Assembly: GCF_027622875.1 (NCBI RefSeq)
Contig: NZ_JAPZVP010000011.1
Location: 1 to 64,000 of the forward strand
Direction of reading: 5' to 3'
Source: Glycomyces luteolus
GTDB lineage: Bacteria > Actinomycetota > Actinomycetes > Mycobacteriales > Micromonosporaceae
Length of the DNA stretch: 64,000 nucleotides
Positions 12,631 to 36,436 of this stretch are shown in pieces. Below the pieces are notes generated by a model. That model searched no databases, was not told the DNA's origin, and was given only the letters and a program-made list of their open reading frames with translations. The position numbers were made by a program, and so were the translations under genes. The number at the start of each line of letters is the position of its first letter. Within the stretch, counting starts at the first letter, position 1.

Positions 12631-14099
12631 AGGCCCGCTCGCTTCGCGGTGCGCAGGAACAGCTCCGGGTTCGCGGCGAACTCCCGGGCGCAGGAAGCCG
12701 AGCAGAAACGGTACCGCCTCCCGCCTCGGCTGAGCTGGTGCTTGGTGTCGTCGTGAAGCCGCATACCGCACACCGGGTCGCGGTCCTCGCCGGTGATCCC
12801 GGCCGCCGCCGGCGTTCGCGGCGGCGCCGGGTGCTGTTCGAGCAGATCGGCATAGAGCCGGAGTTCATCGCCGATGAGACGGGGCAGCAGGAAACGGCGC
12901 CGGACCAGTTCGCGGCCGGCGAGCGCGAGGCGGCGACCGGACTCGGGGTCCCTCAACAGGTCCAGGATCCGCTCAGCGCACTCCTCGACGCTGTCGACGA
13001 GGTAGCCGCCGACGCCGTCGGTGAGTTGCAGCGGAATGCCGCCTGCCCGGCCGGCGACGACCGGTGTGCCCTTCCAGGTCGCCTCGGAGATGACCAGCCC
13101 GAACCCTTCGCGCAGCGACTTCTGGATGACGACTTCGGCTAGGCGCTGGAAGGCGTTGACCTCGATATTGCCCACCCCGGTGAGGTTGGTGAACAGGTAG
13201 ATGTCAGGGTCGTCGGCCGCCTCCGTGCTGATCTCGTGGTACACCTGCCAACCCTCGGGGTCGTCGAGCGCCATCGAACCGACCAGCGCCAGCTGCACAC
13301 CCGGCATTCGGCGTTTGACGATCCGATAGGCGGCGATCACGCCGAGCGGGTCCTTCCAGTGGTCGAACCGGGAGACTTGGACCAGCAGCGGCCGGGTGAC
13401 GTCCACCCCTATCCAATCCAGGATCTCGGTTGTCAGGCCTTTGTCGAGGTCGATGTTCTTCGGGCTGAGCGGATCGATTGCGGGAGGGATGATCTCCACT
13501 CGGCCGGGCGGCGCGTCCGGTGGGGCGAATGAACCGAGGGTGTACACCGCGGCGTCGTATTCGCCCAGCAGCGGTGCCAGTTTGGCGAGCACCGCCGGGT
13601 CGGGCGCCGAACTGTCGATGTGGCATCGCCAGATCCAGACCGCGTCGCGGCGGCCGACCAGATGCCGCAGCATAAGCGGCTGCGGATCGTGCACGACGAC
13701 GATGTCGTAGGACTCCTCGACATTCTCGGCTGCCCGCGCGGACGTCTGCTCGTAGATCTCCCATTCGGCCGGCGTCACCCCGCGCGTTCCGCCTTGGAGC
13801 GCATTGTGGATCGCCTTTGTCACGGCGAAGAACTCGCTGGAACCGGGAATGGTCTTCCATCTCGCGACGATGCCCAGGTCGCGCAGCAGTGGCACCTGCG
13901 ACCGCAGGATTTCGGCGACACCGCCACCGTAGGCGGTGGCGTTCAAATGCAGCACCCGCAGCCCTTGCAGCGGCGCCGCCAGCCTGCGCAGCTCCTCCAC
14001 CGCCGCATCGCCCGCGCTGGCACGGTACGTGTCCAGACTGCTGCGGCCCACCTCAACGTTCTGAAGCATCATCATCGCCTCCGTCAGCTGTACCGGCAC
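12627..14099 (-). CDS. GT4 glycosyltransferase (trehalose-synthase type) fused to a C-terminal YHS domain
   Basis: A 490-residue protein. Residues 1-420 form a GT-B glycosyltransferase like Tre[17 protein letters not shown] at the N-terminus, DRWK-equivalent [11 protein letters not shown], and the donor-site region [10 protein letters not shown]. TreT-type enzymes join NDP-glucose and glucose to trehalose. Residues about 440-490 are a YHS metal-binding module ([13 protein letters not shown] then [12 protein letters not shown]), usually found on copper or toluene-monooxygenase proteins. The fusion is unusual and suggests a metal- or redox-sensing input. It is coupled to galT. Confidence 0.8.
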
Positions 14100-18681: not shown

Positions 18682-21423
18682 TCAGCGCGCGTCTGCCGGT
18701 CTGGTGTAGCGGGCCGGTTCGCTGTCGAACGAGGCAGCACACCCGTCGGAGCAGAAGTAATAGGTGACACCGTCCACCACGCGCGTGTGCGCGGCGGTGT
18801 CGGGCGTGATGGTCATGCCGCACACCGGGTCGACGACGGTTCGGCTCGTGTCCTTGGCGTCGTGGTCCATGGTGGACTCCTCACGTGCCGGTCGGTCTGG
18901 TTGTGGTGGTCCGGAGGTACCGGTCTGCACTCGCGGCTCGATGGGACGCGGAGCGTCGGGTGCCAGCGGGGCGGGATGCCAGCGGCGCAGCCGGTTGGCG
19001 TTGCCGACCACCGACAGCGATGATGCCGCCATCGCCGCGGCGGCGACCATCGGCGAGAGGCGGACGCCCAGGAACGGGTACAGCAGGCCTGCGGCGATCG
19101 GGATGCCGACCGCGTTGTAGATCAGTGCGAAGAACAGGTTCTCGCGGATGTTGCGCATGGTCGCCCGTGACAGGCGGATCGCGGTGACCACGCCCCAGAG
19201 CGACCCGGAGATCAAGGTGACGTCCGCGGACTCGATCGCGACGTCAGTGCCGGTGCCGATCGCCAGGCCGACGTCGGCCTGGGCCAGCGCCGGCGCGTCG
19301 TTTATGCCGTCGCCGACCATGCCTACTCGGCGGCTCTCGGTCTGCAGCCGGGCGATCTCGGCCGCCTTGTGCTCGGGCAGGATCTCCGCCAGCACCCGGG
19401 GCACCCCGACCTGGGCGGCGATGGCCGCAGCGGTCCGTGCATTGTCGCCGGTGATCATCACCGTGTCGATGCCGAGACCTTGCAGCGCCGCCAGGGCGTC
19501 GACCGAGTCGGGTTTCAGGGTGTCGGCCACCGCCAGCACGCCCGCCGCCCGACCGTCGACCGCGGCGTGGACGGCCGTCTTGCCTTGCGCCGACAGTTCG
19601 GCTGTGATCGGTTCGAGAGCGCTGGTGTCGATGCCTGCGTCCGTGAGCAGCCGGGCGGTGCCGACCAGCAGGACGCGCCCGTCGACGCGGGCCTGGATGC
19701 CTTTGCCTGTGGTTGAGTCGAACGCGATCGCGCCGGGTAGGTCGAGCCCACGCTGCCGAGCGCCCGCGACGATCGCCGCGGCGAGCGGGTGCTCGCTGTC
19801 GACCTCCGCGGCGGCCACCAGCCGCAGCAGCGCCCTCTCGTCGACGTCGCCGACCGGGACGACATCGGTCAGGGCGGGTTTGCCGGCGGTGATGGTGCCG
19901 GTCTTGTCCAACACCATCGTGCCGATCTTGTGCGCGGTCTCCAGCGCCTCGGCCGAGCGGATCAGGATGCCCGCCCTCGCGCCCTTCCCGGTGCCGACCA
20001 TGATCGAGAGCGGGGTGGCGAGGCCGAGCGCGCACGGACAGGCGATGATCAGCACCGAGACGCCTGACACCAGGGCCAGGGTCAGCGCCGGAGGCGGCCC
20101 GGCGACGAACCAGATCGCGAAGGCGGCGACGGCGATCGCGATGACCGCGGGGACGAAATACGCCGAGATCCGGTCGGCGAGCCGCTGGATCGGCGCCTTC
20201 GACGCTTGCGCTTGCCGGACGAGCCGGATGATCTGGGCGAGCATCGTGTCAGCGCCGACCTTCACCGCGCGCACCCGCAGCGAGCCCGTGGTGTTGATGG
20301 TGGCGCCGATGACGGTGTCGCGTTCGCGTTTCGTGTCCGGGATCGGTTCGCCGGTGACCATCGACTCGTCCACGGCGGACTGTCCGGAGAGGACGACGGC
20401 GTCGACGGGGATCTTCTCCCCGGGTCGGATGACCACCTCGTCGCCGACGGCGACCTCCTCGACGGGGATTTCGGTCTCGGTACCGCCTCGCACGACGCGG
20501 GCGGTGTGGGCCTGCAGGCCGAGCAGGGCTCGGATGGCCTCGCCAGTACCGGCCTTGGCGCGGGCCTCCAGCAGCCTGCCGAGCATGATCAGGGTGATGA
20601 TGACACCGACGGCCTCGAAATACACCTCGCGGACCTCCGCGGGCAGCACCGCGGGGGCGATCGTGGCCAGCAGGCTGTACCCGAACGCGGCCACCGTGCC
20701 CAAGGTGATGAGGCTGTTCATTTCCGCACTGCGATTGGCCAGGGCGAGCCAACCGGTGCGGTGGACGGGCCAACCGGTGTAGAACATGACCGGGGTGATC
20801 AGCGCGAGCTGCACCCAGTTGTCGAGCAGGAACGGCGGTACCCACGTCGCGCCGAACAGGCTCTCGGCCATAACCGCGACCAGTACCGGAGCGGTCAGGG
20901 CCGCCCCCAGGACGACCCTCCGGGTCAACCCGGCGATCTCCGCGCTGCGTCCGGCTGACTCGAAAGCCTCCTCGTCCGCCGCCGAAGCGGACGAATCCGC
21001 AGGTGTCGTGCCCGCGGGCGTCTCACCGGCTCTCGCGTCGGCGGTCTCCCCGGGTTCGACCTGCAGCGTGCCGTGCACCATGTTCATCCCGCAGGCGAAC
21101 CCGAACGAACCCGCATACGACGGTGTCAGCCGCACCGTGGTCCGCTCGAACGCCGGGAGGACGGCCGATACGGCGAAGTCGCCGAACACCACCCGCGAGG
21201 TGCACTCCCCGGACTCCTGCCGGTCGAAGACCAGCTCCACCGGCACGCCCTGGCGGACCCGGATGACATCAGGGTGGTAGCCGCCGCGCACGGTCACCTC
21301 GATGCGCTGGACCCCGTCCTCGAACGTCGCGGCGTGGGCTTTGCGGGGTGCGAAGAAGTACCAGGCCAGCGCAATGATCGCAGCTGTCGAAGCGGCGAGG
21401 ACGGCGATATCGGCAGCGCTCAC
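18682..21423 (-). CDS. Copper-type P1B ATPase with N-terminal cupredoxin-like and C-terminal YHS domains
   Basis: A 913-residue metal pump. Start GTG at 21423 with GGAGGTG upstream. After a membrane anchor, residues about 35-125 form a cupredoxin-like domain with candidate ligands in [14 protein letters not shown] and [10 protein letters not shown]. The P-type core has [13 protein letters not shown] in TM6 (CPC, monovalent copper class), DKTGTIT and [10 protein letters not shown]. The C-terminus (about 860-910) is a YHS domain: [12 protein letters not shown] then [12 protein letters not shown]. It probably exports Cu(I). It has no classical N-terminal HMA domain; the cupredoxin domain may replace it. 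Confidence 0.88.
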
Positions 21424-21580
21424 GGCGCACCTCCAAAGGGTCGGCGAGTCCTGCATCCGACCCTGCCTCGAACGTACCCCGACATGGAGGGGGCGTTGGG
21501 CCGATGTCTGAGGGACTCCGGACCATCCCTGACCTGCCGGTTCGCGCGTCGAAGGTGAGTCCTACCGAAAGGGGAATCCG

Positions 21581-25442: not shown

Positions 25443-25973
25443 ATGAAGTATCAGATGTGGCAGAACGATTGGGACGGCCGATCGGACCACATGTCGGGCG
25501 GTGACTGGTGGTGGATGGCGTTCATGATGCTGTTCTGGGTGGCGGTCCTGGTGCTGCTGGTCTGGGCGGTGATCAGGCTGAGCCGCGCGATCGAATCGCA
25601 TCACGTCTCGGCCCAGGGCGTCCAGCCGTCGGGGCACCATGAGGCACCTCGTGAGGTGCTCGACCGCCGCTACGCCGCCGGTGAAATCGACTCCGCGACC
25701 TACAGCGAAATGCGTGCCCGTTTGGAAGGCAGCGACCCCGCTGCGGGTTTGGGTTCGAATAAGCGAGAGTTAGGCCGACCGCTAGTCACCGCTTCGATCT
25801 GGTCGCCGCGGTGCTGCCGCTGGCCGACCGCCCCGCTCTCGCGGAGGTGCGCCTCGGTGAGCTCGAATCCGAGGTCGGCACGGACCGCTTCCGTCGTCTC
25901 GCCGCCGCGATCCAGCGCGTCAGCCGCATCCTGCCCTCGGACGCCGCGCCGGTGTCGGAGTTCGGTCTCCTGA
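25443..25973 (+). CDS. SHOCT-domain small membrane protein, probably with a readthrough tail
   Basis: From the ATG at 25443: a short N-terminus, a single helix (WWWMAFMMLFWVAVLVLLVWAVI), then a SHOCT-type oligomerisation motif (LDRRYAAGEIDSATYSEMR, about residues 75-95). The family normally ends a few residues later. Here the frame continues about 75 residues of Arg/Ser-rich sequence that overlaps a different-frame GlyS-like scrap, so the natural stop has probably been lost by rearrangement near 25750. Confidence 0.65.
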   Translation: MKYQMWQNDWDGRSDHMSGGDWWWMAFMMLFWVAVLVLLVWAVIRLSRAIESHHVSAQGVQPSGHHEAPREVLDRRYAAGEIDSATYSEMRARLEGSDPAAGLGSNKRELGRPLVTASIWSPRCCRWPTAPLSRRCASVSSNPRSARTASVVSPPRSSASAASCPRTPRRCRSSVS

Positions 25974-26074
25974 CGGCCGCAAGCGAACAGCGGCTCATCG
26001 CCGAACTCGGCCGCACGGAAGGCGCCGATGGCGGACTGAGCGACCGGATCGCACTCGCCGCCGGCCAACTCTGA
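25763..26074 (+). pseudogene. DALR-domain fragment, glycyl-tRNA synthetase beta-like
   Basis: This 104-codon frame reads HRFDLVAAVLPLADRP, RLAAAIQRVSRIL and FGLLTAASEQRLIAEL. These match the spacing of the GlyS beta-subunit anticodon-binding (DALR) domain, for example ANKRxxNIL then LFxxxxEQxLxxAL. There is no upstream catalytic part and no good start, so I read it as a scrap fused to the SHOCT gene's 3' end by deletion. Confidence 0.4.
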
Positions 26075-26296
26075 TCGTGGGCACCCTCGACTGGCAGTGA
26101 GCCACCACAGCCGGTCTCTTTCATGCCTTCTGCGAACCACTGGCCGTAGCACATTCGCGGCATCGGCGGGTGACGCGCTTTCGACCGTGTCCCCATTGGG
26201 ACATCACTGTTGCATGCGGTGCGCGACTTCGGAAACATTGCGCTCGTCAGCAACCTCACCTACACCAAGTAGGTCTATTTAGGATTGGGGAACGAC

Positions 26297-26482
26297 ATGC
26301 GCAAGTTCGAAGTCGCTCTTGAGGGGCACGGGAACATCTGTGCCCGCTCCTCCTACTCCCCCCTGATGTCTCCGGACGAGGGGTCCGAGGAGACCTTCGA
26401 GGCGGCGCTCATGGCCGCCCTGGAGCAGTCCGAGGCCGTCGAGGCCCCGGCCGCCGAATTGGCGGAAGCGGCCAGTCGTTAA
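26297..26482 (+). CDS. Putative RiPP precursor peptide
   Basis: A 61-residue peptide immediately upstream of two radical SAM genes. It begins MRKFEVALEGHGNICARS, continues SYSPLMSPDEG, and ends in an Ala/Glu-rich helix-forming tail (EETFEAALMAALEQ, then AVEAPAAELAEAASR). It has one Cys (15), one Tyr (20) and no obvious repeated core or protease site. GGGG lies seven bases before the ATG. It could carry its core at either end, or act as a scaffold to which residues are added. The class is not recognised. Confidence 0.7.
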   Translation: MRKFEVALEGHGNICARSSYSPLMSPDEGSEETFEAALMAALEQSEAVEAPAAELAEAASR

Positions 26483-26492
26483 CGGCTGACTG

Positions 26493-26530
26493 GGTTCAAC
26501 GTGCGAGGACGCATTCCTCCACGTTGAACC
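26493..26530 (+). terminator. Attenuator-like hairpin between precursor and first enzyme
   Basis: GGTTCAACGTG (26493-26503) pairs perfectly with CACGTTGAACC (26520-26530). A bulged C is followed by an inner GAGGA..TCCTC stem with a CGCAT loop. There is no T-run. It probably lets the precursor mRNA accumulate over the enzyme mRNA by partial termination or 3'-end protection, as in many RiPP operons. Confidence 0.6.
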
Positions 26531-26633
26531 GTCAACCCGCCGAGGAGTACAGCTCCCGCGGGATTCGAAGTCACCTCGAAATCGATCCGTGATCGCCAGT
26601 ACGTCGCAGGTCCCGGTGAATTGGAGTAGAAGC

Positions 26634-27971
26634 GTGCAACTCTTCCTCGATCGCTATATCCACCTGATCGAACGCCAGGGACAGCATTTGGCCTTCAACA
26701 GCGTCAGCCTCGACTCCTGGGAGCTGACCAGCGCCGAAGCCCGGGTGCTCAAGGAGCACGCCGACGGTGCGACGGCAGTGGACACCGTCGGCGTCGACGT
26801 CGAGGCCCTGGTCGAGGAGGGACTGCTGGTGTCGGTCCGCACCGAACCGGGCAAGGCGATGGAACGCCTCATGGAGAGCCGCAAGTCCAAGTCCGCCAAG
26901 GGCCGAGGCCACTTCAACAGCCTGCGGATGTCGCTCACCGAGCGCTGCAACATGGCGTGCACCTATTGCTTCCAGCAGGCGCTCTACCCCGAGGACCAGC
27001 CTCGCATGAGCGAGGAGACGATGGCCCAGACGCTCGAATGGTTCATCGACCAGGCCGAGGGCGACTCCATCAGCCTCCAGTACTTCGGCGGTGAACCCCT
27101 CCTCGAATGGCCGCTCATCCAGCTCGCCAACGCGACCGTCGCCAAGGCCCTGGCGGAGGGCCGGATTTCCGGTTACCGCCAGACGATGACCACCAACGGC
27201 ACCGTCCTGACCGACACCCGGGCGAAGTGGCTCCTCGAGCAGCAATTCGAGCTCATCTTCAGCTTCGACGGCCCTCCCGAGATCAACGACCAGATGCGCA
27301 TCTTCAAGAGCGGCCGCGGCAGCTACGAGAAGGCCGCCGAGGGCATCAAGCGCTGGTCGGCCCTCGGGGGCGAACCGGCCATCCTGATGACGGCCACCCA
27401 GCTCAACCTCCGGTCCCTGCCCCGCTACGTGCGCTGGTTCGCCGAAGAATCGGGCATCAATCCGGCCGTCATCGCGCTGAACTCCCCGCAGCCGACCGAG
27501 ACCGGTTGGGAGACCGGCGGGGTCGAACTCGCCCAGGCCGTCTTCGAGATGTGGCTGTACTGCGACGAGCGCGGCATCGCCTTCCAGGCCCCGGGCACGT
27601 TCATCCCGCTCCACCTGCGTACGAAGATGCCCCAGTCCGACCACTGCATCGACGGGAACCTCTTCGGGACCGAAGCGGGCACCTGGCCCGTGTACGTCAG
27701 CGCGGACGGTCGCCGTTCGCTGTGCCTGGTCCACCACAACGACCACCGCGTCGAAGTGCCGAAGGGCGGCGATCCGATCGAACTCGGACGACGCTGGCAC
27801 TTCGAAGGCCCGACCGTCGAGGAGTGCGACGGCTGCATCGCCAGCCAGATCTGCGGTGGCCCCTGCACCCTCGAGAAGCTGCTCTGGGGTGGCGACAAGC
27901 TCAGCGCCGACCGCTGCGACTTCATGCGCACCATGACCACCGAAGTCCTCACCTCGGGCCGTGGGGAATGA
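26634..27971 (+). CDS. Radical SAM/SPASM peptide-modifying enzyme
   Basis: A 445-residue enzyme. The radical SAM cluster motif is RCNMACTYCFQQ (about residue 105), with YFGGEPLLEW as the SAM-binding GGE motif. The C-terminal SPASM region has CDGCIASQICGGPC and later DRCDFM for auxiliary Fe-S clusters. The N-terminal 85 residues could hold a peptide-recognition fold. GTG at 26634 with GGAG eight bases upstream is the best start. Its position after a short peptide gene indicates post-translational peptide modification; the bond made cannot be told. Its stop overlaps the next start (ATGA). Confidence 0.88.
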   Translation: MQLFLDRYIHLIERQGQHLAFNSVSLDSWELTSAEARVLKEHADGATAVDTVGVDVEALVEEGLLVSVRTEPGKAMERLMESRKSKSAKGRGHFNSLRMSLTERCNMACTYCFQQALYPEDQPRMSEETMAQTLEWFIDQAEGDSISLQYFGGEPLLEWPLIQLANATVAKALAEGRISGYRQTMTTNGTVLTDTRAKWLLEQQFELIFSFDGPPEINDQMRIFKSGRGSYEKAAEGIKRWSALGGEPAILMTATQLNLRSLPRYVRWFAEESGINPAVIALNSPQPTETGWETGGVELAQAVFEMWLYCDERGIAFQAPGTFIPLHLRTKMPQSDHCIDGNLFGTEAGTWPVYVSADGRRSLCLVHHNDHRVEVPKGGDPIELGRRWHFEGPTVEECDGCIASQICGGPCTLEKLLWGGDKLSADRCDFMRTMTTEVLTSGRGE

Positions 27972-28945
27972 ACGGGTCCAATCCGGACGACGCCGCGGAG
28001 CAGATGGCGGAGGCGATCGACGGACTCCGTCCCACGCCCGGCCGGCTGCTGATCGTCGCGCGCGGAGTCCATCCAGTGTGGACTAATCTGGCGGATCGCT
28101 GCCGTCTGCGGGGCTGGACCGTGGTCCAGCGGACCCTGGCGGTCGACGACCGCCGGTGGGCCCCTCCCGTTCCGGACGGCCTTGCGGCCCACGTCGAATT
28201 CCAGGGCGAGCGCATCGGCTGCGATCTGGTGGTCTACCACGATCCATTCGGGGGCAACGAAAGCCAGGTAGGCGGACCAGTGTCGCTGCGGCGCCTGTGC
28301 GGCGGCGGCATCGCGTTCGTCAGTGTCGACTTCCCGCACGGACTCGCCGACCCGGTCCTCGCGGCGTCGCTGGAGGCGGTCTACCTGCGCGCCCTCGCAA
28401 CGCCCGTGGCAGCGCTGCGCGACCGCGCCGACCGGCTCGCGTCGACGCTGGCAGACGCGGACTCGATCGAAGTCCACTTCGGAGACCGCCGCGTGCTCCA
28501 CGTGCGGGGTCCCTGGAACCTCCGTACCGACTTCGGCTCCGCCCAAGCGGACCTGCCGATCCTGCAACTGCCCCTCGGCGAGGTCTGGATCGCGTGCCGG
28601 CCCGAATCGGTCAGGGGCGACCTCGAAGTGCAGGATGGTCCCGGAGTCAATGGCCCGCGCCGGTTCACCGTCGAAGAGGGACGGCTCCGCGAACCGCGGA
28701 GCGGACGATTCGCCGACCTCCGTCCGGTCGTCGAGATCGGCTTCGGCGTCAACCCGGACGCGCGATGGCTGCCCATGACCTCCTTGGGAGAGAAGGCCGC
28801 CGGTTCGATGCACGTGGGATTCGGCGACAACGTGCTCATCGGCGGCGACGTCGCCGACGACCGCCACTACGACCTCCCGCTGCCGCGATCGGCGCAGGTG
28901 AAGCTCATGACGGCTGCACGAGGAGCGGAAGCGGTGGCACTGTGA
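27968..28945 (+). CDS. M29-aminopeptidase-like protein
   Basis: A 325-residue protein. The C-terminal part holds the metal-ligand pattern of M29 (AmpS/AmpT) aminopeptidases: VVEIGFGVNPDA, then SLGEKAAGSMHVGFGDN and DDRHYDLPL, giving Glu, Glu, His, His and Asp at the expected order. The N-terminus (LLIVARGVHPVWTNLADRC) is family-divergent. M29-fold proteins include aminopeptidases and a ring-opening dioxygenase. In this cluster it may trim the modified peptide or act on the released product. Coupled at both ends by 4-base overlaps. Confidence 0.7.
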   Translation: MNGSNPDDAAEQMAEAIDGLRPTPGRLLIVARGVHPVWTNLADRCRLRGWTVVQRTLAVDDRRWAPPVPDGLAAHVEFQGERIGCDLVVYHDPFGGNESQVGGPVSLRRLCGGGIAFVSVDFPHGLADPVLAASLEAVYLRALATPVAALRDRADRLASTLADADSIEVHFGDRRVLHVRGPWNLRTDFGSAQADLPILQLPLGEVWIACRPESVRGDLEVQDGPGVNGPRRFTVEEGRLREPRSGRFADLRPVVEIGFGVNPDARWLPMTSLGEKAAGSMHVGFGDNVLIGGDVADDRHYDLPLPRSAQVKLMTAARGAEAVAL

Positions 28946-29766
28946 AGCGCATGCCGCTCGCGTTGGACCCCGCCGGCGTCACCGAACCGATCGTCGCGGG
29001 CGTCGGCGACCCGGCCCTCGCCGGGTACGAGTTCGACGCCCTCCTCGACAAGAACATCACCGATGCCTTGCGCCGGGAACGGCTCGCATTCCACAATCTC
29101 GACGTCTTGGAGCGCCTGGCGGACCCCCGGGTCGGCGAACTCATCGCGGTGCCCGGCGGTGACCACGGATTCGTGTACCGCGCCCGGTTTCGCGCGGACG
29201 GCGGATACGACGGCGGCCCGGTCTGGGGCCGACTGGCCTCCGCCTGGCGCTGCTGCCTCGCCGAGTTCGGCCCGATCGACTGGGACGTCGAGGTCTACTC
29301 CAGCGGACACGAGTGGCCCCGCGCGCTCTCCCTCCCCGGAACCGTCCTGATCTCGCATCGCCTCCCGGCGTCCTCCGTTGGCGCGCAATGGCTATACGTG
29401 CTGCACGAACTGCTGCACCAGTGGTTCGGCGCGCGAATCCGGCTCGCACCCGCCTCCCACGCCAGGTGGGAAGCCTGGGTCGACGCGATCGCCTGGACGA
29501 TCGCCGCGCGAGTGCTCGGCGCCGAAGCCGACCAGATCTACGCGACCGTGTACAAGCGGCAGATGGTGACGAGCGAGCCGGGCCTCGCCGAACGCGGATC
29601 GCTCGTCTTGGCCGCCCGCCGCATCCTTCGCGACGACGACGCCGGACTCGCAAGGTTCGCAGCCGCCACGACCGAGGCCGAGCGGCGCGCACGGGCCCGA
29701 CTGCCGCGCACGGTCGCGGACGCACCACCGCTCGACGCGATGAAGGGACCCTCCGATGCTGTCTGA
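28942..29766 (+). CDS. Gluzincin-like metallopeptidase (HELLHQWFG)
   Basis: A 274-residue protein with VLHELLHQWFGARIRL (about residue 153), the M1-type zinc motif HExxHxWxG. A candidate third ligand, Glu, lies in ARWEAWVDA 18 positions after the second His. It is far shorter than M1 aminopeptidases and lacks an evident GAMEN exopeptidase motif. The N-terminal 110 residues are not recognised. It starts at a GTG overlapping the previous stop. It is a plausible leader or product-release protease. Confidence 0.7.
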   Translation: MKRMPLALDPAGVTEPIVAGVGDPALAGYEFDALLDKNITDALRRERLAFHNLDVLERLADPRVGELIAVPGGDHGFVYRARFRADGGYDGGPVWGRLASAWRCCLAEFGPIDWDVEVYSSGHEWPRALSLPGTVLISHRLPASSVGAQWLYVLHELLHQWFGARIRLAPASHARWEAWVDAIAWTIAARVLGAEADQIYATVYKRQMVTSEPGLAERGSLVLAARRILRDDDAGLARFAAATTEAERRARARLPRTVADAPPLDAMKGPSDAV

Positions 29767-30643
29767 GCAGACGTTCATGATCGCCAACTCCTGCAACCTC
29801 AGCTGCACCTACTGCTGGTACGAGGTCGGCACCTCCGAATACGCGCCGACCCCGGTCGGACCCGACACCTACCGCCGCTGGTTGGAACGGTGCAAGAGCA
29901 CCGGCGTCTCGATCGACCGCGTGAACTTCACCGGCGGCGAACCGCTGCTGCGCGAGGACTTCCCGGGACTGCTCGACGTCGCGACCCGCCACGCCGGGAG
30001 CGTCGCCGTCTTCACCAACGCCGTCCTCGTCCGCGACGAGACCGCCGAGCTGCTGGCCTCCAGCGGCACCGAAGTCCACGTCTCGATCGACCACGTCTCC
30101 GAACACATCGGCGACCGGGTGCGCGGCGGCACAAAGGCCACCCTCAAAGGGATCGCCCGGCTCGTCGAGCACGGCGTCCGCAAACTCCAGGTCTGCGTCG
30201 TGATCACCGCCAAGAACCACACGGACCTCCCCGAAATCGTGCGCTTCACGCAGTCGCACGGACTCGACCTCGAACTCATGCCGGTCGGCGTCCCCGAGAC
30301 CCACCCGTTGAGCTTGCGCTCGATCGACCCCGAGGCCACGGCGTCGCTGTCGGCGCTGATCGAAGAGCACCGGGGCCTGCTCGGCCGGGAGGGGTACTAC
30401 CGGCGCTTCCGCAGATTCCTGGGAACCGGGCAGGTGTCGCCCACTCCCGGCTGCGGGGCCGCCGAGCGCGGGGTCTTTGTCAACTCCGACGGCGAGATCT
30501 GGATGTGCCCCCAGCGGAGCGCCGAGACGTTCGGCAACATCGCCACCGCCGACCCGGAGGAGGTGCTGAAACGCAAGCGCGCCGCCGCGGCCGCCAAGCG
30601 CCCCGGTTCCTGCGTGAAGCTCGACTGCCTGGTGCTCACCTGA
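29756..30643 (+). CDS. Second radical SAM enzyme (MoaA/PqqE-like, with Cys-rich tail)
   Basis: A 295-residue protein: NSCNLSCTYCWYEVG at the N-terminus is the CxxxCxxC cluster motif, and FTGGEPLLRED is the SAM motif. The tail has Cys in TPGCGAAERG, WMCPQRS and SCVKLDCL, enough for a twitch or SPASM auxiliary cluster. Its start lies 11 bases inside the upstream peptidase gene. Together with the first radical SAM enzyme it gives the cluster two radical chemistries. Confidence 0.88.
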   Translation: MLSEQTFMIANSCNLSCTYCWYEVGTSEYAPTPVGPDTYRRWLERCKSTGVSIDRVNFTGGEPLLREDFPGLLDVATRHAGSVAVFTNAVLVRDETAELLASSGTEVHVSIDHVSEHIGDRVRGGTKATLKGIARLVEHGVRKLQVCVVITAKNHTDLPEIVRFTQSHGLDLELMPVGVPETHPLSLRSIDPEATASLSALIEEHRGLLGREGYYRRFRRFLGTGQVSPTPGCGAAERGVFVNSDGEIWMCPQRSAETFGNIATADPEEVLKRKRAAAAAKRPGSCVKLDCLVLT

Positions 30644-30686
30644 CGCCTCCCGGACCCGAAGCCCGCCTGCGAATGGAGCCCCTGAC

Positions 30687-31904
30687 ATGCAACGCGTACT
30701 GATACGGCGCCTTGGCATACTCGTCGCCCTGGTCTCGTTCGCGGACTTCATCTTCGGCGCCACCGTCGTCGTCCACATGTTGAACGGCGGCCTGACCGGA
30801 GCCACGATCGGCATCGCGCTGGCGGTCTCCGGGGTGCTGTCGCTCGCGGTCGAGACCCCCAGCGGCGCTTGGGGTGACAAGCACGGCCAGCGCCGGATCC
30901 TCGTGATCGGCCTGGTGCTGTGGGGCCTTGGACTGCTGGCGTTCGGGTTCGCGCAGTCGATGCTGATCTTCACCGTCGCTCTGGTCCTGTGGGGCATCGG
31001 CCAGTCCTGCTACTCCGGCGCGCCGACCTCGCTGGTGCTCAACCGCTTGCACGAGGAGATCGGGGACGAGGGCATCGCCGGGGTGATGCGCAAAGTCCAC
31101 GTGATCCGGTGGACCGCCTCCGGCGCGGCCGCCGCGAGCGTGTTCCTCACCGCGGAGCACTTGGCCGTCGACACGACGATCATCGTGGCCGGAGCGCTCC
31201 TGCTGCCGGTGGCGCTGTGGGTGCGTCTGCGGTGGCCCGAACAGCGTTCGGAAACAAAGGATTCCACGGCGCGGCTGCTCGGGCGCGGCCTGCGGCTGGC
31301 GGTCACCGGCGAGCTGCGCACGCAGATGATCCACGCGGCGCTCATCGGGTTCCTCCTCACCGTCCTGATCTTGACCTGGCAGCCGCTGTCGATGGAGACG
31401 ATCGGGCTGCGACCGGAGTCGCTCGGCCTGGTGCTACTCGTGTTCACGGCGGCCTCGGCCGTCGGCGCTTGGGGCACCAGATTCACCGAGCGATTCGGGG
31501 CCCGTCGGGTGCTCCCCATCGGGCTGGTCCTCACCTGCGCCGTGATGCTCACGGTTGGGGCGGGTGCCGTCGCGACCGGCGCGGCCTTGGTGGCGGCCGA
31601 AGCGCTCACGGGTCTACTGATGTGCCTCAACGCGATCAGGGCGCAGCAGCTGTTCCCCGACGCGCTCCGCACGACCATGACCTCGATCATGAGCGCCGTT
31701 CTCGGGCTTTCGATGGCCTTGGGGGACTTCGTGACCGGACTGCTGTGGGAGTTCATGGGAGTCGAGGCGGCCGTCCGCTGGTGCGCGCTCTCCGTGGCGG
31801 TCGGCTGCCTGGCCGTCTATATCGCGGATCGCTTCAAGTCCGCGGCGAACCCCGAGGTTGCGGGTGAACCGGAGACGTTCGAACCGGTGGGACAGCGCGG
31901 CTGA
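30687..31904 (+). CDS. MFS exporter
   Basis: A 405-residue major facilitator with about 12 helices and the loop 2-3 motif GAWGDKHGQRRIL. A C-terminal polar tail follows the last helix. In the operon it is the only transporter, so it probably exports the finished product; MFS rather than ABC export suggests a small, peptide-released molecule. It lies 43 bases after the second radical SAM gene. Confidence 0.85.
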   Translation: MQRVLIRRLGILVALVSFADFIFGATVVVHMLNGGLTGATIGIALAVSGVLSLAVETPSGAWGDKHGQRRILVIGLVLWGLGLLAFGFAQSMLIFTVALVLWGIGQSCYSGAPTSLVLNRLHEEIGDEGIAGVMRKVHVIRWTASGAAAASVFLTAEHLAVDTTIIVAGALLLPVALWVRLRWPEQRSETKDSTARLLGRGLRLAVTGELRTQMIHAALIGFLLTVLILTWQPLSMETIGLRPESLGLVLLVFTAASAVGAWGTRFTERFGARRVLPIGLVLTCAVMLTVGAGAVATGAALVAAEALTGLLMCLNAIRAQQLFPDALRTTMTSIMSAVLGLSMALGDFVTGLLWEFMGVEAAVRWCALSVAVGCLAVYIADRFKSAANPEVAGEPETFEPVGQRG

Positions 31905-31960
31905 CGAAGACGAAGTCGGCGGCGGCGAGCCGCCGGAAGCTCAACGAGAGGAACGGTCGG

Positions 31961-33385
31961 ATGGAGAATCGAATGGAGCGGCTGGCAGGCTGGCTGATCC
32001 GGGACAAGGGCACGGACTACCTCGCGACCATGCGCGGCTGGATCGAGCTCGAAGGCGTCCCCAGAGGACTTCCGCGGGAGGCCCCCGCGGTGGTGTTCGG
32101 CGAGCGCGCCGAACCGGCCCGGCTCACCGTCGCGAAGATTGAAGTGGACTCGACCGGCGACTCCGGCACCCGCCGGCGGCCCCGGCTCGCGGTGCGCCCG
32201 GCGGGCCACCTCTCGACCGCGTCCGGACTCCGCCAGACCGCGCGGGAATGGCTGGTCGAGAGCGGCTTCGACGAGATCGTGCTGCCCATGATCTGGTCGC
32301 GCTCCGAAGAGTACGGAGCCGAGGAGTTCCAGCTCGCGCACAGTCGGATGGACGACATCGACCTGCGGATCCTGCAATCTCCTGAGTTCCCGCTCTACAC
32401 TGCCCTTGCCGAGGGCCTGGACCGCAGCTTCGCCTTCGGGCGCTGCTTCCGCTACGAGGCAGGCGACGGCGCCGCCTCCTCCGAGCACTACCTGATGGAG
32501 TTCGAGCAGCTCGTGTTCGCGACGACGTTCGAGGGTCTCGGCGACTGCATGGCGCAGGTCGAGGAACTCATCCGCACGCTCGCGAAAGCGGTCAGCGTCG
32601 ATCTCGACGACGTCGACTTCCTGGTGAGCGCACCCGAGGGAATGTCCGATGTAGCCGCCAAGGGGCGGGCCGTCGAGCTGGAGCGGGTTGTGCTGTTCAC
32701 CGTCCCCGCGTCCTGGCCCGCGGCCGCCCGGCGCGTCCTCGTCGACCGCTTGGAGCAGGCGGGGGCGAGCGTCATCGCCCTCGAGGGCGATGACGACGTG
32801 CTTCGCGGGGGCACCGAGGTGCGACTGGCGGTCGAGACCGGCGACGCCACCGTGGCCACCGTGCACCGCATCCTGGACACCGCCGCCTCCTACGTCATGC
32901 CGGGCAACGGCATCTCCGCCGCCATAGCGCTCCAGTGGAACCCGGCATGGGAGGCCTACCTTCCTCTGGAGTGGAGGGAGGACGAGCAGTCCGAATCGGC
33001 CTACCCCGTCCGATCGATCACCTCCAGGCGCGAGACCGACGCGGACGGGAACGAGCGGATCGCCGATGCGGAGCTGTACCTCAAGGGCATCGAGGTGGCA
33101 CACGTGCGGGCGTACGCCGACCGGACCCAGTTCGAGGAGAACCTCGCCAAGGCCGGGATCAACGACCCCAACGGGCGCTTCGGATACCTGCTCGACGCGC
33201 TCGAATCGGCGCCCCCGGGCATGGTCGGGATGTTCATCGGCTGGGAGCGTCTGCTCACCGTGCTCGAAGGGCTCCTCGCGACCCAGGAGGCGCAGCTCTA
33301 CCCCCGGGACGGTACCGGCCGCCTCGTGGGGGAGACCGGCCCGCACGCCCACCGCCGCACCGACCGCGACGCCGACAAGGAATGA
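31961..33385 (+). CDS. Class IIb aminoacyl-tRNA synthetase paralog without recognisable anticodon domain
   Basis: A 474-residue protein with an Asp/Asn/Lys-type class II catalytic core. Motif 1 region: SGLRQTAREWLVESGF. Motif 2: GRCFRYEAGDGAASSEHY then LMEFEQL. Motif 3: GMVGMFIGWERLLTVLEGL. The stretch ADAELYLKGIEVAHV matches the D-x-x-x-x-G-x-E-I region of AspRS. The first 90 residues do not look like the OB-fold anticodon domain. It may activate an amino acid for attachment to the peptide or to a tRNA used by another enzyme. GAGAGGAAC precedes the ATG. Confidence 0.75.
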   Translation: MENRMERLAGWLIRDKGTDYLATMRGWIELEGVPRGLPREAPAVVFGERAEPARLTVAKIEVDSTGDSGTRRRPRLAVRPAGHLSTASGLRQTAREWLVESGFDEIVLPMIWSRSEEYGAEEFQLAHSRMDDIDLRILQSPEFPLYTALAEGLDRSFAFGRCFRYEAGDGAASSEHYLMEFEQLVFATTFEGLGDCMAQVEELIRTLAKAVSVDLDDVDFLVSAPEGMSDVAAKGRAVELERVVLFTVPASWPAAARRVLVDRLEQAGASVIALEGDDDVLRGGTEVRLAVETGDATVATVHRILDTAASYVMPGNGISAAIALQWNPAWEAYLPLEWREDEQSESAYPVRSITSRRETDADGNERIADAELYLKGIEVAHVRAYADRTQFEENLAKAGINDPNGRFGYLLDALESAPPGMVGMFIGWERLLTVLEGLLATQEAQLYPRDGTGRLVGETGPHAHRRTDRDADKE

Positions 33386-34554
33386 CCATGGGAGACCTAC
33401 CCGTTCCCGGCGCCGAGGGGTTGACGAGGCGCTGCCCGTTCTCGGTGATCGAGGAGTACGAAAAGGTGCGCGACACCTCAGGGGTGGCGCCGCTCGACAC
33501 GCCCAGCGGCAGGCCCGCGTGGCTGCTCGCCTCGTTCGAGGAGACCAAGGCGACACTCGCCGACCCCCGGTTCGCCTCGGCGGTGAACGAGCCGCCGCCG
33601 CTGGACGACGGCAACCCCATCCCCGGCTGGTTCTTCGGGCTGGACGGCGCCGAACACTCCCGGTACCGGAAGCTGCTCACCGGCCAGTTCACGATGCGCG
33701 CCGCGCGGAAGGCGGCGCCCCGCATCAGGGCGATCGTCGTCGAGCACCTGGAGCAGATGCGGCGGCAGGGCTCGTCCGCGGACCTGTTCGAGGCGTTCGC
33801 CTGGCCGGCTCCGGCCCGCGTCATATGCGACCTGCTCGGCGTGCCGCGGGACATGGAGGCGCTCTTGACCTCCCAGATCGAGATCATCGACGGGGACGAC
33901 CCCCGCGCGGACCGTCTCGGTGCGATGCAGACGATGTGGGATGCGCTGGTGGGCCTGACCGCCGCGAAGCGGCTGCGGCCCGGCGACGACATGCTCAGCG
34001 ACCTGCTCGCCGGGAACGACGTCAGCGACCAGGTCGGCGCCTCGTTCGCGCTCGCACTGCGCATCGCGGGCCACGCCCCGGTCTCCCACGTCGTCGGCAT
34101 GGGGGTCCTGTACCACCTGACCGAGAATGGGCTCGACGGCCGGTTCGGCGACACCGGCCGCCGCGATGCGACCGTGGAGGAACTGCTGCGGTTCCTGCCG
34201 ACCAACAACCTCGGCGTGCTCCGCCTCCCGACCGAGGACGTCCAGATAAGAGGGCAGGCGCTCCGCGCGGGCCAACCGGTCGTCGCCTCGCTTGCGGTGG
34301 CGAACCGGGATCCGGCCCGGTTCGAGGACGCCGAGTCGTTCCGCCCCGAACTCAGACACCCGTCGCACCTGGCCTTCGGCTACGGTCCGCACCAATGCCT
34401 GGGCCACAACTTCGCGCGGGTCGAACTCGGCGTGATCTTCGAGGAGCTCTTCGGCCGATTCCCCGGCCTTCGACTGGCCGTGGCCCTCGACGAGGTCCCC
34501 ATGCAGGACTCCGCGCAGTCGTACGGCGTCACCGCGCTGCCGGTAGCCTGGTAG
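33382..34554 (+). CDS. Cytochrome P450 with altered I-helix
   Basis: A 390-residue bacterial P450. The heme motif is FGYGPHQCLGHNFARVEL, the K-helix ExxR is EELLRF, and the C-helix is HSRYRKLLTGQF. The I-helix, normally AGxET, reads IAGHAPVSHVVG, so both the acidic residue and the Thr of the proton-relay pair are missing. Such P450s may use peroxide, substrate-assisted chemistry or bind a carrier. Start ATGA overlaps the aaRS-like stop; ATG at 33388 is also possible. Confidence 0.85.
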   Translation: MTMGDLPVPGAEGLTRRCPFSVIEEYEKVRDTSGVAPLDTPSGRPAWLLASFEETKATLADPRFASAVNEPPPLDDGNPIPGWFFGLDGAEHSRYRKLLTGQFTMRAARKAAPRIRAIVVEHLEQMRRQGSSADLFEAFAWPAPARVICDLLGVPRDMEALLTSQIEIIDGDDPRADRLGAMQTMWDALVGLTAAKRLRPGDDMLSDLLAGNDVSDQVGASFALALRIAGHAPVSHVVGMGVLYHLTENGLDGRFGDTGRRDATVEELLRFLPTNNLGVLRLPTEDVQIRGQALRAGQPVVASLAVANRDPARFEDAESFRPELRHPSHLAFGYGPHQCLGHNFARVELGVIFEELFGRFPGLRLAVALDEVPMQDSAQSYGVTALPVAW

Positions 34555-34563
34555 GAGTCCAGT

Positions 34564-34994
34564 ATGGAATTGGCTACCGAGGCGCGGGGGCCGGTGGCGC
34601 TCCCCAGGACGATTCGATCGTCCGGCGCCCTGCGCGAGCGCACGGCAGCGCTCTCGGAGCCCGGATCGTTGACGCGGTTCATCACGCGCTAGAACGATGT
34701 CGATGTGCTGCTGACCGACTCGCGGCTGGCGGCGCAGCCCGCGACGGAACCGGCATCCGCCGCGGGTCCACCGACCGCGCGGGACCGATTGGACGCGCTG
34801 GCGGGCCGATGGCCGGCGTTCACGGACCCGCCGCACTGGACTGTCCTGAGAAGACTGATGCATCCACTTTTCCAACCCCGACACATCGATGCCGCGGCCG
34901 TCTCGGTGGTGAGGCGCTCCGGAACGGTCCCTCCTCTGAAACACCGCGGCAGCTGCGCGAAGTCATTGGCGCCGCCCTGAACGGATTCGCATAG
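34564..34994 (+). pseudogene. P450 N-terminal remnant with in-frame TAG
   Basis: The frame begins MELATEARGPVALPRTI, reaches SLTRFITR, hits an amber codon at 34690, then continues in frame as NDVDVLLTDSRLAAQP and FTDPPHWTVLRRLMHPLFQP. The latter is a P450 C-helix region. After about 34895 the frame shifts and ends near 34994. No heme motif follows. It looks like a decaying second P450; 34995-35411 shows no further gene. Confidence 0.6.
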
Positions 34995-35411
34995 ACCGGA
35001 AGGCTCGTTCACCCTGCCGTTCGGGAAGGGGGCCATGCCTGTATCGGGGCGCCCTTCGCTCGAAGGACGGTAGTCGCGGTGCTGGAGGCAAACGGAATCG
35101 GCACTCGGCTTCCGGTGGATGGATGGGACATCGCCCCGGACATGAGACGGTGGCTCACCTGAGCACCGACGGGCCTGTGGCATGGCTCCTGCGCTCCGGG
35201 CCCGCCTTCGACGAATCCTGCCGGTTACCCGCCGGTCATCTGCCTTGAATTGAGCCCGGAACGATATTTGAATAGTCCCTATCAGATTCACGCCGTGAAC
35301 CGCCATAGCCGGACAGCGATCGCGCCCCGTCATGAAAACGGCCTCAACCGCCGCCGGATCCTAGATGGAAGCCCCGCCGTTCCCGATGAATATGGGTGGA
35401 AAGGACTGCAA

Positions 35412-35729
35412 GTGAGCCCTTCTGGACCAGGCATCGCAAAGATTGCGCCGCTCACTGAATCAGAATTGAAAATCCTCTCACACGTCATCGCCGCCCCGAA
35501 TCAGTACACGGCGGCGGAGTGGCTGGACATCTCCCGCCGTCATCTACGGCGGCAGATAGAAGCGATCAACGAGAAACTCGGTGCCGAGACCATTCTCCAG
35601 ACGGTGGTGCTCGCGACGATCCGAGGACTGGTGGACCCGAAGTCGCTTCCAGAAGGCAGTATCGAGGAACGTGCGTTTCAGCTGGGACGCTCGGGCAAAT
35701 GCCGAGCAGTATGCCCCCTTGGCAGGTAG
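35412..35729 (+). CDS. LuxR-type HTH protein
   Basis: About 105 residues from the GTG at 35412 (AAAGGACTGC upstream). LTESELKILSHVIAAPNQYTAAEWLDISRRHL is the NarL/LuxR-type four-helix DNA-binding region; no receiver or sensor domain is present. At the 3' end of the RiPP-type cluster it is a plausible cluster regulator. A longer start at 35250 is possible but has no better ribosome site. Confidence 0.6.
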   Translation: MSPSGPGIAKIAPLTESELKILSHVIAAPNQYTAAEWLDISRRHLRRQIEAINEKLGAETILQTVVLATIRGLVDPKSLPEGSIEERAFQLGRSGKCRAVCPLGR

Positions 35730-36390: not shown

Positions 36391-36436
36391 GCAGAACGGG
36401 GTCAAGGGGTCCCAGGTTCAAGTCCTGTCAGCGACA
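36391..36436 (+). other. tRNA 3'-end-like scar
   Basis: GGGGTCAAGGGGTCC is followed by a T-arm-like CAGGTTCAAGTCCTG (36413-36427) and a short tail, TCAGCGACA. There is no matching 5' acceptor strand, D-arm or anticodon arm upstream, so no complete tRNA. It could be an attachment-site scar of an integrative element. A strong terminator follows at once. Confidence 0.35.

Follow-up and report, generated by a model that had tools for sequence, protein, structure and literature searches.

The Nif11-peptide, PapB ranthipeptide, and SCIFF systems of ribosomally synthesized and post-translationally modified peptides (RiPPs) combine a short cysteine-containing precursor with an adjacent radical S-adenosylmethionine (SAM) protein that carries a SPASM domain and a leader-binding-like N-terminus; to our knowledge, an aspartyl-tRNA synthetase (AspRS) paralog, M29-like and M1-like genes, and a P450 are not part of these systems. 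A short precursor, a SPASM radical SAM protein, and a peptidase are also found in the PQQ and mycofactocin operons. EpmA/GenX and asparagine synthetase A are LysRS/AspRS-type class II D/K/N paralogs, enzymes that activate an amino acid by adenylation and pass it on without tRNA, and spare copies of aminoacyl-tRNA synthetases (aaRSs) protect some producers. In the pearlin/PEARL pathways (TglA/TglB, ammosamide), a ribosomal peptide is combined with an enzyme linked to aminoacyl activation and with possible proteolytic release, and the aaRS relatives AcmF (AlaRS-like, ascamycin) and SbzA (IleRS-like, SB-203208) have been recruited to natural-product assembly (PMC12945691). Some HEXXH proteins encoded in RiPP pathways are alpha-ketoglutarate hydroxylases (PMC12636437). 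Here we describe a locus in a 64,000-nucleotide stretch of Glycomyces luteolus (contig NZ_JAPZVP010000011.1, positions 1 to 64,000; hereafter the window), in which a precursor-like peptide gene and two radical SAM genes share an operon with a paralog of bacterial AspRS.

Genes A to H lie on the + strand of the window in one compact operon of approximately 8.3 kb, with inter-gene gaps from A to H of 106, -4, +5, -11, 43, 56, and -4 bases. We propose that A-H constitute a RiPP-type biosynthetic operon with A as the substrate, G as a tRNA-independent ligase, and further tailoring by the remaining enzymes, and we give this explanation as a whole a probability of about 0.5. A RiPP-type pathway with A as its substrate is in itself highly probable, and a putative ligase role of G within it is our preferred assignment at even odds. 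The features of the locus are listed below; percentages give protein identity to the window in loci L008 and L009 (two other Glycomyces) and L007 (the linear plasmid of Streptomyces sp. NBC_01727), in this order.

26297..26482, + strand: A, 61-aa precursor-like peptide; homologs in the corresponding position in L008, L009, and L007, and a sole plasmid match; 95%, 69%, 35%
26493..26530, + strand: A-B intergenic stem-loop; two perfectly paired 11-bp arms enclosing 16 nt; a hairpin there in all four clusters
26589..27971, + strand: B, radical SAM/SPASM maturase with a leader-binding-like N-terminal region, from domain matches, its cysteine set, and the 5wgg match; alternative starts at GTG 26616 or GTG 26634; 93%, 78%, 51%
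27968..28945, + strand: C, likely M29-fold metallopeptidase-like protein, from Foldseek on an AlphaFold model and conserved residues; 71%, 67%, 44%
28951..29766, + strand: D, gluzincin-like protein with HELLHQWFG and invariant E174, from the motif and the alignment of four; 75%, 64%, 29%
29756..30643, + strand: E, second radical SAM protein with a four-cysteine C-terminal (twitch/SPASM-like) part, from domain matches and alignment; 88%, 81%, 49%
30687..31904, + strand: F, MFS transporter and probable exporter, from domain matches and tblastn; 86%, 74%, 38% (tblastn)
31961..33385, + strand: G, diverged bacterial AspRS paralog with reduced N-terminal and insertion domains, from PF00152, the PDB sequence match, and alignment; 92%, 77%, 45%
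33382..34554, + strand: H, cytochrome P450, from Pfam and heme Cys339; 80%, 73%, 40%
34567..35159, + strand: remains of a second P450 gene, decayed and without its middle part; open frames in loci L013 and L014
35412..35729, + strand: I, LuxR-type helix-turn-helix protein of ~105 aa if the start at 35412 is correct; similar genes at the same place in two other Glycomyces clusters

Pfam and NCBIfam assigned radical SAM domains to B and E, MFS to F, tRNA-synt_2 (D, K, and N) to G, and P450 to H. No Pfam or NCBIfam model exceeded its cut-off for A, C, or D, and among the matches listed no NCBIfam cut-off was reached by B, E, or G.

The arrangement of the operon is conserved in three other genomes. 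In tblastn searches, the nine genes A-I were recovered in order in L008 and L009 (62-95% identical in the principal aligned segments) and the genes A-H in order in L007, where the proteins are 29-51% identical to those of the window. Two close relatives within the genus of the window strain carry the cluster, Glycomyces sp. NRRL B-16210 and G. paridis. The recurrence of the A-H order in three other genomes, together with the plasmid match of A directly before the Streptomyces B gene, argues that the arrangement is more than chance. A single extra gene, inserted between G and H in Streptomyces, encodes a pyridine-nucleotide-disulphide-type flavoprotein that may feed electrons to the P450. Every gene named in a preliminary description of the window was found on the + strand in the order given there; its characterization of the set as tightly coupled holds for A-H, with gaps of 106 to -11 bases, but not for I, which starts 695 or 857 bases past H. 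That description had also stated beforehand that precursor homologs absent from syntenic clusters would refute it. Such homologs are present in all three other clusters found, and their alignment revealed two conserved boxes and an invariant Cys15.

In all four clusters, A is a short open reading frame (ORF) that adjoins and is co-conserved with the maturase gene, as is typical of RiPP precursors. Two boxes, LExxGxICxRS and FExxLxxALExxE, are common to the four peptides, and the invariant residues include L8, E9, G12, I14, C15, R17, and S18, as well as E31, F34, E35, L38, A41, L42, E43, and E46; the C-terminal tail is the least conserved part and varies in both length and sequence. Cys15 is the only cysteine of the window peptide. 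A search of A against 72,556 plasmid records (E limit 10) gave a single match, the ORF directly upstream of the Streptomyces B gene, at E = 1; since such a score is weak alone, the weight of this match comes from its position and alignment. Within the 31-kb Streptomyces locus, the same ORF was matched by tblastn with an E-value of 1.6e-6. The dN/dS ratios of A calculated by the NG86 method were 0.47 and 0.52, from few changes. Compared to the NRRL B-16210 copy, A differs at 5 of 183 bases (26297-26479) with a dS of 0.05 (NG86), whereas B-H have dS values of 0.24-0.50; recombination or constraint on the RNA could account for this low value, which was not seen in the comparison with G. paridis (dS 0.45).

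The hairpin between A and B is present in all four clusters, and its sequence in Streptomyces is unrelated to the others, so structure rather than sequence seems to be kept. In mono-nucleotide shuffle tests, the hairpin region had z-scores of -5.1 in the window, -3.8 in L013, -1.1 in L014, and -3.6 in L007; the A-B stretch of L014 is longer and as a whole is not significant in this test. The hairpin may serve as a device that raises A mRNA over the remaining operon mRNA. An Rfam match to IRES_Bip (E = 0.0057) was under its gathering score and was set aside as chance. Upstream of A, positions 26180-26296 are partly conserved in the three Glycomyces and contain a palindrome resembling GTCCCCATTGGGAC that is imperfect in the relatives and could be an operator.

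G scored 80.6 bits against PF00152 (gathering cut-off 25), and its motif 2 R164 and motif 3 R430 are invariant in the four clusters, which places it in the class II D/K/N superfamily. The preliminary claim of a class II aaRS paralog is borne out, and residues of the adenylation site are retained. The best PDB sequence match of G was a bacterial AspRS (4.7e-15), and it aligned with the AspRS of its own genome at E 3.9e-7 and 22% identity. G reached 40.3 of 373.85 bits and 50.9 of 443 bits against the AspRS equivalogs TIGR00459 and NF001750, respectively, below both cut-offs; the AspRS over the cut-off (730 bits) is a separate gene elsewhere in the genome (contig C46). Weak profile matches were also obtained to EpmA/GenX and asparagine synthetase A (30.1 and 25.1 bits), from which G differs in being closest to bacterial AspRS and in its location within a peptide-modification operon. 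HMMER aligned both halves of G, the motif 1-2 half and the half with E378, R383, and motif 3. Invariant in the four clusters are R164 and E166 (motif 2), E378, R383 (aligned to the arginine of AspRS SVRIH), and R430 (motif 3); we take the kept motif residues to have adenylation-site roles and E378 to be the Mg-site glutamate. With 474 aa against 578 aa in the AspRS frame, G has both a shorter N-terminal region and a smaller insertion separating the halves, the latter presumably a reduced GAD-like domain. Its catalytic part starts ~53 residues earlier than in the own-genome AspRS, and its N-terminal stretch LAGWLIRDKG is aligned where the AspRS anticodon domain begins. Based on these alignments, G is derived from a bacterial AspRS and is likely an adenylating enzyme without normal tRNA binding. 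AcmF and SbzA are unlike G in their aaRS ancestry and in producing aminoacyl sulfamates or sulfonamides.

The maturase-like protein B contains seven cysteines invariant in the four clusters (C353, C379, C413, C416, C422, C426, and C443), presumably the SPASM pattern. Its N-terminus aligns with the Nif11 and CcpM maturase profiles from residues 24-25, and its best PDB sequence match, at 1.3e-24, was chain 5wgg (CteB), in which the alignment begins at residue 46; no match to the Pfam PqqD model was found at E<=1. Among the best 25 of 75 families, the closest profile relatives of B were the Nif11, PapB, and QHNDH maturases, all far under their cut-offs. The scores against the NCBIfam equivalogs for thioether RiPPs were 123.2 of 518.7 bits (Nif11 rSAM), 119.2 of 340 (PapB), 87.3 of 425 (SCIFF), and 95.4 of 500 (CcpM), so that none of these cut-offs was attained; A, moreover, matched no family. 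The second radical SAM protein, E, is shorter and has four C-terminal cysteines invariant in the four clusters (C233, C251, C286, and C291). It differs from the mycofactocin enzyme, with 78.6 of 265 bits against mycofact_rSAM, and the other genes of the locus differ from those of the PQQ and mycofactocin operons. A viperin or defence role of the radical SAM proteins was also considered: PADLOC (six of the nine proteins searched) gave only pVip-type matches, of 17-61 bits, which lay over the radical SAM cores in B and E, and E scored 54.5 of 180 bits against the NCBIfam viperin model, and this reading was dropped.

No Pfam or NCBIfam match to C was found at E<=1, PF02073 included. Foldseek searches with its AlphaFold model (mean predicted local distance difference test score, pLDDT, of 65) ranked M29 aminopeptidases PepS/AmpS in the first four places among PDB structures (E 2e-9 to 7e-7), with TM-scores of 0.46-0.47 by query length and a root-mean-square deviation of 8-10 Å on superposition. 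The residues E205, E275, H282, H300, and D302, which we take to be of the M29 metal-ligand type, are invariant in the four clusters. On the strength of this model, C likely, though not certainly, has an M29 fold. The M29 family PF02073 itself was matched in 1 of 31 genomes and in none of the three cluster-bearing Glycomyces. A partial C-like match in another genus of the family (genome G103, among 4 of 150) was dropped, as an M29-like protein beside genes that look catabolic, judged from their frames. D carries an M1-type HELLHQWFG motif, and its HExxH and E174, 17 residues past the last histidine, are invariant in the four clusters. The scores of D against PF01433 (Peptidase M1) were 12.8 bits for the window and 17.3 bits for L007, under the cut-off of 27.7 and confined to the motif; its best PDB sequence E-value was 0.024, with M1 motif matches only, and no NCBIfam family was matched at E<=1. 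As an HExxH protein beside RiPP genes, D resembles ChlBH, BpmH, and PflC (PMC12636437), and it is unlike them in its M1-type motif.

H scored 81 bits against PF00067 (cut-off 22.8), and its ExxR motif (E267..R270) and heme-binding C339, both invariant in the four clusters, identify it as a P450. Its I-helix reads AGHAPVSH, presumably without the usual P450 acid-alcohol pair. A second P450 gene between H and I has decayed in the window and is open in L013 (12612-13742, 376 aa) and L014 (12609-13721, 370 aa); as a result, the product of the window strain may be less oxidised. Two starts are available for I, TTG 35250 (695 bases past H) and GTG 35412 behind AAGGA (857 bases past H). We tentatively prefer the latter, near which strong similarity to other Glycomyces begins, with weaker similarity upstream of it.

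Under the proposed explanation, A would be made in excess of the enzymes owing to the hairpin that follows it. B would bind A via its N-terminal domain and modify it, most likely in the region of invariant Cys15, with thioether-type chemistry by analogy, and C and D, as relatives of metallo-aminopeptidases, would trim the peptide. G would adenylate an amino acid and transfer it onto a peptide amine or thiol without tRNA; E and the P450 H would introduce further radical and oxidative changes, F would export the product, and I would regulate the pathway. We infer every chemical step, the order of the steps, the amino acid used, and the product. The absence from G of the aspartate-contacting residues of AspRS suggests that its substrate may not be aspartate. 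More tentatively, and at less than even odds, the locus may represent an undescribed RiPP class, with an AspRS descendant as a tRNA-independent ligase on a radical-SAM-modified peptide and two aminopeptidase-fold proteins that release the product.

Several observations weigh against the proposed explanation. The proposed pathway is drawn from the genes of only four clusters, three of which belong to one genus. The Streptomyces A peptide contains three cysteines, and judging from the alignment its crosslink pattern may be different. The fold match of C rests on a model of pLDDT 65 with low TM-scores, four of its five ligand-type residues fall in a C-terminal third that is mostly below pLDDT 50, and hhalign of C with one true M29 protein gave an E-value of 0.0066 and a probability of 5.8%. 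By analogy with the HEXXH hydroxylases, D could be an oxygenase instead of a peptidase. In G, the aspartate-contacting residues of AspRS, namely the lysine of QSPQLFK, the aspartate of EFTQID, and the histidine pair, are not kept. An OB-like N-terminal vestige remains in G, and since its AlphaFold model has a pLDDT of 32, the loss of tRNA binding is deduced from the sequence alone.

Four other explanations of the pathway or of G were compared with the proposed one. A could be a carrier only: a residue would be built or added on it, C and D would then free a small molecule, and F would export this molecule. This scaffold-peptide pathway had been suggested in the preliminary description, and the two peptidase-like genes, the adenylating-enzyme paralog, the MFS gene, and a precursor without an obvious core all agree with it, with the PEARL pathways as a precedent (PMC12945691). 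However, we consider it doubtful: Pfam and NCBIfam gave no LanB-like family for any of the nine proteins (for B and E, among the 25 NCBIfam matches listed), a class II aaRS paralog being present instead; the C-terminus of A, the site of extension in PEARL pathways, is variable in length and sequence; and C and D resemble aminopeptidases, not carboxypeptidases. The locus could alternatively specify a thioether- or cyclophane-type RiPP in which G is minor or regulatory, as suggested by the relationship of B to Nif11 rSAM, PapB, and 5wgg, whose thioether chemistry is named in part in the models, and by the one cysteine of A that is invariant in the four clusters. This is likewise rather unlikely, given that B remains far under the cut-offs (at best 123 of 518.7 bits) and that none of the four clusters lacks G, whose active-site-type residues are invariant, unlike a dispensable gene, although G was itself the query for three of the four. 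G might still use tRNA, charging the tRNA so that a tRNA-dependent step could transfer the residue to the peptide, in line with the alignment of LAGWLIRDKG to the beginning of the AspRS anticodon domain and with the existence of aaRS-like enzymes that use aminoacyl-tRNA. SbzA is such an enzyme (PMC12945691). G has a shorter N-terminal part than AspRS, and no tRNA-dependent transferase family (PEARL, GNAT, or CDPS) was found in the nine proteins (for B and E, among the matches listed), which makes this role improbable. Finally, descent from a bacterial AspRS would suit a second, drug-resistant AspRS copy by which the producer escapes inhibition of its AspRS by the product, but G, at 40.3 bits against the 373.85-bit TIGR00459 cut-off and 22% identity to the own AspRS, is far under the AspRS models and has lost N-terminal and insertion parts of the enzyme; this self-resistance role is very improbable and was rejected.

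For A itself, the short length and the hairpin that follows would be compatible with a regulatory leader peptide rather than an enzyme substrate. The conservation of its amino acids across genera in two boxes, the dN/dS of 0.47-0.52, and the leader-binding-like region of B point the other way, and we regard such a role as highly unlikely.

The kind of pathway proposed, a RiPP operon, is known; for the enzyme set, the literature searched offers no precedent. This gene set was not found in the literature as judged by titles and the beginnings of abstracts, and partial coverage of subscription papers makes this absence weak evidence. A match to a characterised pathway, the other finding that the preliminary description had named as refuting, was not obtained with Pfam or NCBIfam over cut-off or in the literature, dedicated RiPP mining sets lying outside the comparison. 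If the proposed explanation is true, a ribosomal-peptide pathway has recruited a translation enzyme as its peptide ligase, a route of amino-acid addition distinct from PEARLs and nonribosomal peptide synthetases, and functions would be obtained for C and D, proteins without a Pfam or NCBIfam model over cut-off. The small size of the operon and the presence of all eight genes in three sequenced Glycomyces and one Streptomyces make it transferable to a host and directly testable.

The occurrence of the cluster is sparse. G was found in 3 of 22 Glycomyces genomes, and the window's own genome was the only one with the G protein in the class sample (1/394) and with the G and B alignments in the phylum samples (1/396 and 1/326, respectively). 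These samples overlap and are not additive, up to five first-look candidates were scored per genome in them, and the two other cluster-bearing Glycomyces were evidently not drawn in the class and phylum samples. The G alignment was found in none of 392 genomes of the genus of genome G167, which we guess to be Streptomyces, and the cluster was present in 1 of 72,556 plasmid records. As a control, a Glycomyces-only profile of G recovered the Streptomyces copy (E 1.5e-118). A scan of genome contigs with two N-terminal patterns only matched 50 stretches, of which two loci, both from Glycomyces, were kept. Three of the four clusters were found by searching with G, and clusters that lack it could have escaped. 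The Streptomyces cluster (L007:324-20265) lies on a 700-kb linear plasmid with IS6-family transposase genes on both sides and a Methyltransf_19 gene upstream. This sparse, partly plasmid-borne occurrence fits the horizontal spread of a specialised-metabolite cluster.

The flanks of the cluster contain fragments of translation genes. In NRRL B-16210 (L013), the cluster lies directly behind an intact glyS, with the start of A 234 bases past the glyS stop, and in G. paridis a glyS-like stretch in the opposite orientation is located ~3 kb before A. The window has a 280-base fragment of the 3' part of glyS (GlyRS) ahead of the cluster (25785-26064), 96% identical to its own intact glyS 74 kb away on the same contig (C3:100154-103159) and 92% identical to the NRRL copy over 225 bases. 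Downstream, positions 36398-36432 hold a 35-base 3' piece of tRNA-Pro(GGG), 97% identical to the intact gene on contig C48 and followed by a strong terminator-like inverted repeat; this piece is possibly an attachment-site remnant. It seems that the cluster either changed its place in the genome or arrived with the glyS and tRNA fragments.

Elsewhere in the window, ARAGORN reported a tRNA-like structure at 13875-13964 with a four-base anticodon (acgg) and no type assigned, which is probably a chance fold. A P-type ATPase is encoded at 18685-21456 by a single frame of 924 aa, in which a Cupredoxin_1 domain precedes and a YHS domain follows the ATPase core.

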